Below the pieces are notes generated by a model. That model had not been told where the DNA came from and did not search any database. It saw nothing but the letters and a program-made list of their open reading frames with translations. This document shows, piece after piece, positions 20,659 through 25,150 of a stretch of DNA of 64,000 nucleotides. The DNA comes from Lentzea sp. NEAU-D7 (GTDB lineage Bacteria > Actinomycetota > Actinomycetes > Mycobacteriales > Pseudonocardiaceae). The position numbers and the translations under genes are program-made. Within the stretch, counting starts at the first letter, position 1, and every line of letters begins with the position of its first letter. The stretch spans positions 1 to 64,000 of the forward strand of contig NZ_JAPJDL010000011.1 of NCBI RefSeq assembly GCF_026242055.1, given 5' to 3'.

Positions 20659-20788
20659 CGGCACGCCGAGCGCTTCGGGCGTCGCAGTCCGAAGTGGAGC
20701 GCCGTTCGAACCGGCTCCACCGCGACTCGAGCGCGGCTCCAGGCACGACCGTCCATTTTTGTCGGTGGTCCCCGGTAACGTCCCCTCC

Positions 20789-22783
20789 ATGAGTGCTGCT
20801 GGGGATCGGATTCAGGAGCTCGCCGGCCGGATCGTCGAGCTGCGTGACGCGTACTACCAGGGTGAGCCGCTGGTGGCGGACGCGGAGTACGACGCGATCG
20901 AGGACGAGTTCCGCGGCCTGGTCGCGAAGCACCCGGAGCTCGCGCCGGAGGACAACCCGCTGGACCACGTGGGCGCGCCGTCGGTGCTGCACGCGCCGGT
21001 GCGGCACTCGCGGCCGATGCTGTCCCTGGAGAAGGCGAACAAACCCGAGCAGGTCGAGTCGTTCTTCGCGCGGTTCCCCGGCCAGCCCGTGGTCGTCATG
21101 CCGAAGCTCGACGGCCTGTCGCTGGCGCTGGTGTACGAGAACGGGCGCCTTGCGCGCGCGGTCACCCGAGGCGACGGCACGACGGGCGACGACGTCACGT
21201 TCCTGACGCGCGCGTTGTGCGACGGCGTGCCGGACAAGGTCGAGGCGCCGGGGCGGGTCGAGGTGCGCGGCGAGTGCGTGATGCTGCGCTCGACGTTCGA
21301 CACGTACAACGCGGCGCACCCGGACAAGCCGCTGATCAACCCGCGCAACGCGGCCGCGGGCACGTTGCGCGCGAAGGACCCGAAGGCGGTCGAGGGCCGG
21401 CGCATGCAGTTCTTCGCGTTCGACCTGACGACCGAGCCGGAGAGCGCCGACTCCGACCTCGACGCGGGCCTGCGCAAGCTGGGGTTCAGCGTCGCGGAGA
21501 TGAAGCACTGCTCCACCGCGGCCGAGGCGCAGGAGCTGATCAGCGGCATCGAGCAGGCCCGCAACACGCTCGACTACGACCTCGACGGCGCCGTGCTGCG
21601 CCTGGCGAACCGCGACGCGTTCGCCGCCGCGGGCACCCGTTCGTCGTCGCCGCGCGGTGCCATCGCGTACAAGTTCGCCGCCGAGGAGAAGACGACGGTG
21701 CTCAAGGACGTCGTGTGGGACGTGGGCAAGACCGGCAAGATCGCCCCGGTCGCGTGGCTCGAGCCCGTGTTCGTCGGCGGCACGACCGTCACCCGCGCGA
21801 CGCTGGCCAACCAGGAGGTCATCCGCTCGCGCGGCATCAAGATCGGCGACACCGTCCTGGTCCGCCGCGCCGGCGACGTGATCCCGTTCGTCGCGGGCGT
21901 GCTCGACGAGTCGAAGCGCACCGGCGCCGAGCAGGAGATCGTCCCGCCGTCGGAGTGCCCGTCCTGCGCCCAGCCGCTGACCGAGCAGGGCAACAGCCGC
22001 GAGCTGTTCTGCACGAACTCGGCCTGCCCGGCCCAGACCGTGCGCCGCCTGATCCACTGGTCGTCCCGCGCCGCCGCCGACATCGACGCCATCGGCCAGG
22101 TGTGGATCGAGCGCCTCGCCGAGACGGGCGACCTGGTGAACCCCTCCGACTTCTACACGCTCACCAAGGAACGCCTGCTGGAGTTCGACCGGGTGGGCGA
22201 GGTCTCCGCGACCCGCATGATCGAGTCCATCGACCGCAGCCGCTCCGTGGGCCTGCGCCGCGCGTTGATCGGCCTGTCGATCCCGATGGCCTCCGAAGGC
22301 ACCGCGGCCCGCCTGTGCCGCGCGGGCTTCGGCTCCCTGGAGGCCGTCGCCGACGCGGGCGTCGAGAAGCTCGTGGCCGTGGAGGACATCGGCCAGAAGG
22401 TCGCCGAGTCGATCAACTTCCACCTGGCCCGCCTGCGCCCGGAGATCGAACGCCTGCGGGAACGCGGCGTCTCCCTGGAGGTGCGGGAGGAGGACCTGCC
22501 CCCGGTGGTGGTCGCCGGCGCACCCCTGGAGGGCAAGTCCGTCGTGATCACGGGCTCCATCAGCGACCCGCGATCCGGCGAGAAGGTCACCCGCCCGACG
22601 TTCCAGAAGATGTGCGAACGGGCCGGCGCCACCGCCGCCTCGTCGGTGTCGGCCACCACCGACCTGCTCATCACGGGCGAGGGCGTCGGCGCCGGCAAGC
22701 TCACGAAGGCGGAGAAGCTCGGCGTCGAGGTGGTCGACCAGGGCGAGATCTGGGCGAAGCTGATCGCCGCCGGAGTCGCCTGA
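20789..22783 (+). CDS. ligA: NAD-dependent DNA ligase
   Basis: A 664-residue NAD-dependent ligase that seals nicks between adjacent DNA strands. In order it has an Ia domain (DAYYQGEPLVADAEYD), an adenylation domain with K106 in MPKLDG, an OB fold, a four-cysteine zinc finger (CPSC and CTNSACP, about 390-415), a helix-hairpin-helix domain and a BRCT domain (about 585-664). All expected domains are present. The ATG at 20789 gives the standard N-terminus; TAACGT lies 7 bases upstream and no ribosome binding site is seen. The usual actinobacterial neighbours (gatCAB) are absent and the protein is somewhat short, so this may be a second ligase copy. Confidence 0.95.
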   Translation: MSAAGDRIQELAGRIVELRDAYYQGEPLVADAEYDAIEDEFRGLVAKHPELAPEDNPLDHVGAPSVLHAPVRHSRPMLSLEKANKPEQVESFFARFPGQPVVVMPKLDGLSLALVYENGRLARAVTRGDGTTGDDVTFLTRALCDGVPDKVEAPGRVEVRGECVMLRSTFDTYNAAHPDKPLINPRNAAAGTLRAKDPKAVEGRRMQFFAFDLTTEPESADSDLDAGLRKLGFSVAEMKHCSTAAEAQELISGIEQARNTLDYDLDGAVLRLANRDAFAAAGTRSSSPRGAIAYKFAAEEKTTVLKDVVWDVGKTGKIAPVAWLEPVFVGGTTVTRATLANQEVIRSRGIKIGDTVLVRRAGDVIPFVAGVLDESKRTGAEQEIVPPSECPSCAQPLTEQGNSRELFCTNSACPAQTVRRLIHWSSRAAADIDAIGQVWIERLAETGDLVNPSDFYTLTKERLLEFDRVGEVSATRMIESIDRSRSVGLRRALIGLSIPMASEGTAARLCRAGFGSLEAVADAGVEKLVAVEDIGQKVAESINFHLARLRPEIERLRERGVSLEVREEDLPPVVVAGAPLEGKSVVITGSISDPRSGEKVTRPTFQKMCERAGATAASSVSATTDLLITGEGVGAGKLTKAEKLGVEVVDQGEIWAKLIAAGVA

Positions 22784-22800
22784 CCCCACGAACGCGGGAA

Positions 22801-22839
22801 GCCCCCACGCTGCCTGGGGGAGGACGGCAGCCTGGGGGC
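22801..22839 (+). terminator. Terminator of ligA
   Basis: A 14-base stem with a single mismatch (22801-22814 with 22826-22839) and an 11-base loop lies 17 bases after the ligA stop. It also occupies the place where the first unit of the following repeat array would carry its long hairpin. Confidence 0.65.
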
Positions 22840-22849
22840 GAGTAGAGGT

Positions 22850-23990
22850 GGTCGGTGCGGCGGTCGCCTCTCGGCGGTGTGCGCGACGCGGCTCCGGGTG
22901 AACGGTGTTCCGCGAGGGCTGTTGTGTTGGGGCCTGGGGACTCGTTCGGCGCCGACCGTCCTGTGCAACGGTGCGGGGTTCCGTTGTGTTTCCTGGTGAT
23001 CTGTGTGCTCGGTCACCGGGTGTTGTTGCTGTGCAAGGGGATGCTGAGAAGGGAAGGCCCTCGGGACGTCTGGGGGGTGTACGGCCCGAGGGCGTGGCGT
23101 GTGGGTGGTGCGGCGGCCGTCCTTCGGCGATAGGCGCGGGGGAGCGTTGTGCCGCAACGGCGTTGGTGTTGCGGTGCCACAGGTTGCTGGAGAGGGAAAG
23201 CCCTCGGACCGTCTGGGGGTGTACGGCCCGAGGGCGTGGCGTGTGGGTGGTGCGGCGGTCGCCTTGCGGCGATAGGTGCGCGCAGGTTCCGGGTGTGCGG
23301 CGTTCCGCACGGGCCCTGGTGTGCGGTGTAACGGTATTGCTCGGGTAGGGAACGCCCTCGGGCAGTGTCGGGGTGTACGGCCCGAGGGCGTGGCTTGTGT
23401 GGTGCTGCGGTCACCTTTCGGTGATGCACGCGGGCGAGCGGTGTGCCGCAACGACGTTGATGTCGCGGTCCCAGGTGTTGCTGGAGAGGGAAGGCCCTCG
23501 GGTCGTCTGGGGGGTGTACGGCCCGAGGGCGTGGTCTGCAGGTCGGTGCGGCGGTCGCCTCTCGGCGGTGGGCACGACGCGGCTCCTGCCGGACGGTGTT
23601 CCGCGAAGGCTGTTCTGTTGGGGCCCGGGGACTCGTTCCGCACCGACCAACTCTTACAACGGCGCGGGGATCTGTTGTGTTCCAGGAGGATCTGTGTGGC
23701 CGGTCACCGTCGGTCAAGACGAAGGCCTTGTGGGACAAAGAACAGGTGGTCGGCGCGGCAGGAGAGGTCCGCGCCGACCGGACGCCCGAGAGCCGGGCGG
23801 CGGGGGGGAGTGGCGGGTCGCGGGGGGGGACGGGAGGCCGATGCGATCGGTCGCCTCTCGGCGAGTTGCTCGACGCGGTACCAGCTGTGCGGTCTTCCGC
23901 GAAGGCGATGAGGTGAGGCCCGGGGGGACACGGACCGCACCGACCAACCTGTACAACGGCCGCGGTGCCCGGCGTGTTTCCGGACGGGCT
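22850..23990. repeat. Tandem array of about 145-bp hairpin-forming repeats
   Basis: There is no gene between ligA and 24217; the space is filled by diverged repeats. Four copies of a long hairpin, GCCCTCGGG pairing with CCCGAGGGC around a 19-base G/T-rich loop, begin at 23057, 23200, 23354 and 23494. The third has an 11-base stem and the second one mismatch. A short hairpin, TCGCC-4 bases-GGCGA, follows each long one by 57-61 bases (about 23118, 23259, 23411, 23555), with further copies at 22864 and 23851. In the third unit the short stem changes to TCACC/GGTGA, preserving pairing. Flanking units carry a dyad GGTCGGTGCGG (23541) with CCGCACCGACC (23638) and a tight hairpin at 23748-23779. Reading frames shift between units, so the array is not a protein repeat. 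The plus strand is strongly G/T-rich. Confidence 0.8.
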
Positions 23991-24103
23991 GTGGGGTCGC
24001 TCACCGCTGTGCCGGGAGCTCGCACGGAACGCGCGGTCCACCCGGCGCGTCCGCGCGAACGTCGGCGCGTTCCTGCGCCCCAACTCGGAGCGACTCGAAA
24101 CGC

Positions 24104-24191
24104 GGCAGGGCCACCGGGGACCGCACGATGTCGCGCGGCATTGACCCGGTGGCCCTGCCCCGAGTTCGCCAAGAGCGCTCGACGAACTCGG
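24104..24191. terminator. Nested strong hairpins between the repeat array and the M23 gene
   Basis: A perfect 15-base stem (24104-24118 with 24145-24159, 26-base loop) is followed at once by a 9-base stem (24160-24168 with 24183-24191). They lie just past the stop of the minus-strand M23 gene and could terminate transcription from both sides. The long first stem is unusually stable. Confidence 0.65.
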
Positions 24192-24216: not shown

Positions 24217-25140
24217 TCAGTAGAAGCAGCCCGTGCGGGGCAGCGACGACGGCGCCGGCGGCGTCCGTCCGTCGTACACGGCGAGCAGGAAGTTCTGCGG
24301 GCAGTAGGACGTCCCGCTGATCTTGATCGCGATGTGCAGGTGCGGGCCCGTCGAGTTGCCGGTGTTGCCGGTCGTGCCGACTCGGTCACCGGCCTTGACG
24401 GCGGCGCCGTTCGAGACCGACCACGACGAGAAGTGGCAGTAGATGTAGTCGACGCCGCTCTTGACGATCCGCAGGCCGTTGCCGCAGCCGTTGGGCTCGT
24501 TGATGCGGTAGGCGGTGCCGGTGACCATCGCGTACGCCGGCTTGCTGTTCACCGGCAGGTCGATGGCGGGGTAGTCGTGGTGCGGGTCGTCGTACTCGCT
24601 GCGCGGCAGGGCGCTCTTGGCCAGCGGCAGGCTGTAGGTGCCGCCGCCACCGCCGCCGGAGCCCGATCCGCCGACCAGGGTCTGCCACGTGTTCGGGCCG
24701 ACGATGCCGTCCGCGGTCAGGCTCTTCGAACGCTGGAACGCGACGGCGGCGTTGTGGGTGCCGCTGCCGAAGTCGCCGTCCTCGTCCAGGCCGTAGCCGT
24801 AGCGGTTGAGCTGCACCTGGGCGGCGCGCACGGCGTTGCTGTTGTTGCCCTGCTTGACGCTGACGATCAGCTTCGGCCAGGTGTTGGGGCCGATCTGGCC
24901 GTCCGCCGACAGGCCGTTGGCGCTCTGGAACTGCTTGACCGCCGTCTCGGTGGCCGGGCCGAAGTCGCCGTCGGCGCTGATGTTGTAGCCGCGGTGGCGC
25001 AGCAGGTGCTGGGCGGTCAGCACGGTCGCGCCGTTCTGGCCCTCCTTGACGTTCGGCCACGCCGGCAGCGCCGCCTGGGCGGGGCTGACGACTCCTATCA
25101 GAACCCCGAACGAGATCAGGGCGGCAACGAGGATTCTCAT
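24217..25140 (-). CDS. Secreted M23 peptidase with two peptidoglycan-binding domains
   Basis: A 307-residue exported protein. It has a signal peptide (1 to about 24, ending in SPAQA), two PG_binding_1 domains (about 30-90 and 95-155, each with a DGDFG and IGPNTW/VGPNTW core), a Gly/Ser linker, and an M23 LytM-like domain (about 185-290). The zinc motifs HHDYPAID and HLHI are present, so it is probably an active endopeptidase. It would cut cell-wall cross-bridges of its own or a competitor's wall. The ATG at 25140 is used; GTG at 25149 is an alternative. A LuxR-type gene ends 10 bases upstream on the same strand, so the two probably form an operon. Confidence 0.92.
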   Translation of the reverse strand: MRILVAALISFGVLIGVVSPAQAALPAWPNVKEGQNGATVLTAQHLLRHRGYNISADGDFGPATETAVKQFQSANGLSADGQIGPNTWPKLIVSVKQGNNSNAVRAAQVQLNRYGYGLDEDGDFGSGTHNAAVAFQRSKSLTADGIVGPNTWQTLVGGSGSGGGGGGTYSLPLAKSALPRSEYDDPHHDYPAIDLPVNSKPAYAMVTGTAYRINEPNGCGNGLRIVKSGVDYIYCHFSSWSVSNGAAVKAGDRVGTTGNTGNSTGPHLHIAIKISGTSYCPQNFLLAVYDGRTPPAPSSLPRTGCFY

Positions 25141-25150
25141 GGCCTGCACG

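Follow-up and report, generated by a model that had tools for sequence, protein, structure and literature searches.

A predicted cluster of small structured RNA genes beside ligA in Lentzea suggests an RNA family without an Rfam entry

Three predicted RNA genes between ligA and an M23 peptidase gene

Sequence comparison strongly supports reading the array at 22.8-24.0 kb of the window (the whole 64,000-nt stretch of Lentzea DNA that was analysed) as a cluster of three genes, all on the minus strand, that encode a single small structured RNA. Covariance-model matches place three full genes there, and the searches described below gave no credible Rfam match and no description in the literature searched. 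The array is flanked by ligA (20759-22783, plus strand; DNA ligase domains) and by a peptidoglycan-binding/M23 peptidase gene (24217-25149, minus strand). Each full gene comprises, in order, an upstream box, a promoter-like element, an RNA body of ~110-125 nt and a downstream hairpin. Copy 3, in which two closing-stem pairs and two other pairs are broken, points toward the end of the convergent ligA, and the other copies point into further copies. The whole genome of this Lentzea holds four copies. A strong 18-base inverted repeat (94%), perhaps a terminator, lies at 24101-24162, in the gap that separates the array from the M23 gene. The features of the array, along the direction of transcription, are as follows.

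23989..24005, minus: upstream box of copy 1, GTGA-N6-(T/A)CAC-like, by sequence register
23976..23981, minus: -35-like GGAAAC of copy 1, 18 bases ahead of GTT at 23957
23835..23958, minus: full sRNA gene copy 1 (5'-most along transcription); R1/R2 covariance model match, 109.7 bits with R2
23748..23779, minus: strong hairpin downstream of copy 1, followed by a T-rich stretch (minus); candidate terminator, not called by the consensus scan
23692..23708, minus: upstream box of copy 2, by sequence register
23679..23683, minus: -35-like GGAAC of copy 2, 18 bases ahead of GTT at 23660
23540..23661, minus: full sRNA gene copy 2; covariance model match, 121.7 bits with R2
23494..23530, minus: C-rich-loop hairpin directly downstream of copy 2 (fourth long hairpin); repeat/hairpin scans
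23396..23480 (approximate limits), minus: diverged partial copy with a CACC-GAAA-GGTG 3' GNRA-type hairpin; weak model match at 23408-23471 (9.5 bits, E 0.078)
23352..23391, minus: third long hairpin, with a C-rich loop, in a partial module; repeat/hairpin scans
23249..23330, minus: diverged partial copy with a CGCC-GCAA-GGCG hairpin; weak matches of 17.5 and 16.9 bits
23200..23235, minus: second long hairpin, with a C-rich loop, in a partial module; repeat/hairpin scans
23105..23160, minus: diverged partial copy, short hairpin only; model match at 23109-23156 (5.1 bits, E 0.88)
23057..23093, minus: first long hairpin, with a C-rich loop, in a partial module; repeat/hairpin scans
23001..23017, minus: upstream box of copy 3, by sequence register
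22988..22993, minus: -35-like GGAAAC of copy 3, 18 bases ahead of GTT at 22969
22849..22970, minus: full sRNA gene copy 3 (ligA side); covariance model match, 89.8 bits with R2
22801..22839, minus: C-rich-loop hairpin downstream of copy 3, adjoining the end of ligA; hairpin scans

An earlier note on this DNA described an array of about 145-bp units, each with a long and a short hairpin. The elements themselves are as described: the repeat family in which the four long hairpins lie is spaced by 142, 154 and 141 bases, a short hairpin follows each, two extra short hairpins lie outside (inside 22851-22970 and 23837-23958), and the double change from TCGCC/GGCGA to TCACC/GGTGA is found near 23412-23425. 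The unit, by contrast, was mis-cut: it fuses the hairpin lying downstream of one gene with the 3' half of a diverged copy. The array consists of three full RNA genes and, between them, diverged partial copies that account for the 145-bp units. The true unit was indicated by an additional match of 82 bases to window 23553-23632, which 21 of 24 Lentzea genomes have at one other place in the genome. This single copy sits, in the genome under study, between a major facilitator-type (MFS) gene and an AlgH-like (yqgE) gene, and a strong terminator-like hairpin there ends just ahead of the same-sense MFS gene. The element is 91-100% identical across 21 loci, and its flanks align across the 8 loci compared. 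The remaining three Lentzea genomes (G005, G016 and G019) have model matches on other contigs.

Fold, covariation and strand

The fold was derived from an alignment of 78 rows (A2), in which 19 of 21 single-copy rows were used and identical-sequence rows removed. It has a 10-bp closing stem around a hairpin of 4 bp, a second, interrupted one and a third with a GNRA cap; together these give 26 pairs, nine of them with changes on both sides. Covariance model R1 yielded 61 matches in 55 loci of other genera; counts over 59 copies from these genera, used throughout, exclude L206 and L208 as duplicates of L191 and L184. A second alignment (A3) holds 58 distinct rows from other genera with 1474 cells, of which 99.0% pair, and 14 of its pairs have changes on both sides. 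Both sides are changed in 192 cells, against 45.1 expected in shuffles. The earlier note had made its case depend on covariation among more aligned units, and here 0 of 500 shuffles attain any of five covariation measures; sliding the partners by 1-3 columns lowers pairing to 34-46%. The A3 rows were aligned to the model, which biases them toward its structure, and despite this guidance all ten closing-stem pairs have double changes, as is expected of a structured RNA gene.

Several features place the RNA on the minus strand rather than on the plus strand, along which the units had first been read. On the minus reading G-U cells far outnumber A-C cells (131 versus 2 in A3 and 211 versus 14 in A2), so the RNA is assigned to that strand; the GNRA tetraloops and the promoters likewise indicate it. 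A GNRA tetraloop is found in 78 of 78 A2 rows (GAGA in 58, GTGA in 18, GCGA in 2) and in 46 of 59 copies elsewhere, the other 13 being without it. The GNRA hairpin shows no covariation of its own, since it is invariant in A3. Single sequences fold weakly better than shuffles (z of -1.07, -1.03 and -0.68 for the three window copies and -2.03 for the copy at the single-copy locus), and two single-copy folds depart from the consensus. A plus-strand RNA was rejected although its lower predicted free energy (-51.9 and -58.3 for two copies, versus -38 and -45 when these are read on the minus strand) is the strongest argument in its favour: the plus-strand folds have z of 0.26, no better than shuffles, and -1.71, and sequence comparison decides for the minus strand. 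Three stretches of the RNA are near-constant, GUGUCCCC(C)GGGCC, GGAAUACCG..CUGGAGCC and GCCGAGAGGCGACCG, and could serve to base-pair with mRNAs or to bind a protein. No tRNA or tmRNA identity was found in three single-copy loci.

Promoter-like element and upstream box

All three window copies are preceded, in the same register, by a box GGTGA(G/C)CG..CACAG and by GGAAAC/GGAAC-N18-GTT. Among the copies from other genera, 46 of 59 have the strict pattern GGAA[CT]-N16..19-GTT, with a spacer of 18 in 45 (shuffle control over 200 shuffles: mean 0.5, maximum 3), and 13 of 59 are without it. GGAAC-N18-GTT is also present at 21 of 21 single-copy loci. Counts for Lentzea array copies rest on 57 rows, two copies with N runs upstream being left out; the strict GGAA[CT] pattern occurs in 18 of 57 and a relaxed pattern in 55 of 57, the latter count standing without a shuffle control. 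Two Lentzea genomes (L125 and L126) have one RNA copy each with a GGAAT promoter region, and the ligA end is absent from the fetched stretch. The consensus scan found no sigma-70 promoter at the array.

An ECF-type promoter at fixed distance is what an sRNA dependent on an ECF sigma factor should have. The factor would be of the SigE/SigH/SigR type, to judge by the consensus sequences of these sigma factors. The sigma-E sites of S. coelicolor have a -35 near GGAACTT and a spacer of mostly 18 bp (PMC10771440). Control of the RNA genes may differ between families, as hinted by copies of family f19 (L178, L180, L182 and L204), in which TAGAGT overlaps the GTT and fits a housekeeping -10 too.

Measured against GTGA-N6-TCAC, the upstream box agrees at 7 or all 8 of the 8 positions in 54 of 57 copies from Lentzea arrays, and in 11 of 59 from other genera, with shuffle means of 0.53 and 0.24, respectively; the copies are related, so these counts are not independent. 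Its two halves resemble CRP half sites.

Downstream hairpins and partial modules

A first table of the C-rich downstream hairpins demanded CCCC in the loop and, because this was its selection criterion, cannot count C-rich loops; a recount was done without that demand. A hairpin with a CCCC loop lies downstream in 55 of 59 Lentzea array copies versus 15 of 59 copies elsewhere, and the rest of the latter have other loops downstream. Within the window, strong minus-strand hairpins have a CCCC-type loop in five of six cases in the array and in 0 of 40 outside it; on the plus strand the figures are 0 of 6 and 3 of 49. The C-rich hairpins have no T run, and the consensus scan found no canonical terminator at the array. 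They are proposed to act as terminators or as target-seeking loops. In L124 (1567-1893, minus reading), five C-rich-loop hairpins, counted under the CCCC-in-loop filter, stand in a row after one RNA copy, which looks as if the hairpin alone had multiplied.

The three partial modules that separate copy 2 from copy 3 retain C-rich-loop hairpins and, in addition, the RNA's 3' hairpin. They score 5-17.5 bits with the model, and no ECF-type promoter was seen at any of them. The match at 23105..23160 is not significant alone; a repeat family (D6) ties it to 23396-23513 at 81%.

Distribution and history of the array

The RNA was found with R1 in 24 of 24 Lentzea genomes searched, the genome under study included, at 1-5 copies each. 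A DNA search matched the array, whole or in part, in 23 of 24, so the repeats are not due to chance. Model matches in 23 Lentzea array stretches number 61, comprising 59 full and two partial copies. The search of related genomes that the earlier note had proposed was productive: at a threshold of E 0.001 or better, R1 matches 259 of 297 genomes of the family, spread over 36 of the 46 genera sampled, and 92 of 394 genomes of the class, from 44 of 138 sampled genera, in searches whose stricter large-scale filters lose weak matches. Family f2 had no match in the 19 genomes listed from the class search. A sample drawn from the phylum, which itself includes class members, gave matches in 4 of 149 genomes, all four in the class. 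Covariation over many genera, conserved promoters and presence throughout most of the family support one of the possibilities raised at the outset, a family of small structured RNAs.

Plasmids carry the RNA as well. A search with a Streptomyces-type copy as query returned 50 plasmid records and one with another query 67, mainly from Streptomyces, Rhodococcus and Prescottella; the named carriers include Streptomyces, Rhodococcus and Nonomuraea records. The Nonomuraea carrier is filed as an 11.85-Mb 'plasmid' and, given this size, is probably a chromosome. All six fetched carrier stretches were confirmed by R2, five of them with GGAA[CT]-N18-GTT, and the RNA is intergenic in all four that have a gene table. 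Conjugative MOBF plasmids of Rhodococcus hold one intergenic copy with GGAAT-N18-GTT (L235 5001-5093; L236 5001-5100), and 15 Prescottella records stand in the same plasmid listing. A phage origin was considered and rejected, there being no match in 50,697 phage records.

Lentzea arrays hold 1-4 copies. The end of ligA lies beside the array in at least 18 of 22 other Lentzea stretches and the M23 gene in at least three, both lower bounds because the fetched stretches are short. Of the 57 copies in arrays with two or more, 42 have as nearest neighbour a same-class copy (first, or not first, in the array) from another species and 12 have one from their own array; neither applies to the other 3. 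The array is therefore mostly old, with its paralogues mostly kept apart. The earlier suggestion of amplification in place holds to the extent that tandem copies also occur in other genera (L202, L203, L209 and L231), but not for most Lentzea copies, given these nearest neighbours.

Comparison with known RNAs

Rfam 15 gave no match in the window at gathering score, and for the window and 11 further loci no match was credible; at relaxed E-values, related loci drew only microRNA-like or other scores far below gathering. The 6C RNA of Actinobacteria, which is in Rfam and has hairpins with C runs in the loop, shares these loops with the Lentzea RNA and differs in that the Rfam search matches it to neither the window nor the 11 further loci. 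MicA and RybB are short, Hfq-bound, sigma-E dependent sRNAs of enterobacteria. They offer a working likeness, in which an ECF sigma factor switches on a trans-acting sRNA in envelope stress, with no kinship in sequence or structure, and the Lentzea RNA has a closed, highly conserved fold.

Ms1 RNA is ~300 nt long. Like the Lentzea RNA, it is a widely conserved, intergenic structured sRNA of actinobacteria, and it is described as RNAP-binding (PMC9130861). Ms1 adjoins a HAD-type hydrolase gene with a synteny of its own, whereas the Lentzea array lies beside ligA and the single copy beside the MFS and AlgH-like (yqgE) genes. The Lentzea RNA is moreover multi-copy and much shorter, differences drawn from the description of Ms1, and it has no Rfam match. 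The conserved Streptomyces sRNAs scr5583 and scr1434 share C-rich apical loops, proposed by their source as a possible route to mRNAs; it presents them as lone stem-loops of high stability or as having one distinctive C-rich terminal loop, and the comparison with the Lentzea RNA is by description (PMC3765725). A CRISPR array, with identical short repeats and unique spacers, had been discounted by the earlier note, and rightly so: the units are ~140-154 bases long and diverged throughout.

Proposed function and alternative explanations

The genes are probably paralogous, stress-inducible and trans-acting sRNA genes on the minus strand. Their identity as RNA genes is strongly supported; transcription, sigma factor and target we infer from sequence. 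An ECF sigma factor (SigE/SigH/SigR type) would activate these genes during envelope or oxidative stress, probably assisted by a regulator at the upstream box. The RNAs would then act in trans on mRNA translation starts through their conserved C-rich and CUCACC-like stretches or, alternatively, through a bound protein. The copies would persist as separate paralogues, either raising the RNA dosage or broadening the set of targets, and, as part of the same probable reading, the partial modules that lie from copy 2 to copy 3 would be decaying duplicates that keep their C-rich-loop hairpins.

There is an appreciable chance, short of an even one, that the RNA corresponds to a Streptomyces sRNA already seen in RNA-seq and never made into a family; its Streptomyces member may have appeared as an unnamed or numbered sRNA. 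The RNA is present in Streptomyces with a GGAAC-N18-GTT promoter. SCR7204, a possible candidate, is a sigma-E ChIP site and among the sRNAs of the published sigma-E set (PMC10771440). The literature search that found no description covered sources other than the original S. coelicolor sRNA listing (PMC3218513).

More tentatively, the RNA might be a new class-wide actinobacterial riboregulator, amplified in tandem on chromosomes and also on conjugative plasmids, that acts as a folded ribonucleoprotein and not by plain antisense pairing. The idea arises because the inner loops and the GNRA hairpin stay near-unchanged from family to family across many of them, whereas the stems vary freely. Were it true, a plasmid could feed its own RNA copy into the stress network of its host.

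A cis-acting leader (riboswitch or attenuator) of downstream genes is unlikely. The hairpin just ahead of the MFS gene at the single-copy locus would suit it, as would several copies elsewhere with a same-sense gene downstream, and at such loci a leader role may apply; however, the array copies run into further copies and then into convergent ligA, and by crude gene calls the neighbours vary from place to place, some being antisense, so that no constant same-sense downstream gene is found. We give very little weight to a DNA-level element, whether an array of protein-binding sites or a palindromic mobile repeat (REP/BIME-like) spread in place, both of which the earlier note had entertained. 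Tandem copies, duplicates in several genera, copies on plasmids and the G/T bias of the plus strand could be read in this way, but compensatory changes, a one-strand G-U bias and a promoter at fixed distance are not expected of such elements; the genome under study, moreover, holds four copies only, not many dispersed ones, and most copies are positionally kept between species. That the stretch encodes small proteins is scarcely credible: long open frames exist on both strands (e.g., 496 aa at 22153-23643, minus) but are expected because the DNA is G+C-rich, and the copies differ inside the conserved part by one- and two-base indels, which no frame could survive.

Significance

To our knowledge, a function has been established for few of the trans-acting sRNAs in Actinomycetia. 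An RNA found in 36 of 46 sampled genera of the family and 44 of 138 of the class, with an ECF-type promoter and no Rfam entry, would offer a direct handle on post-transcriptional stress control in producers of antibiotics; its stems, its promoter and its copy number all lend themselves to clear tests. The copies on conjugative Rhodococcus plasmids raise the question of whether host stress genes may come under plasmid-borne control.
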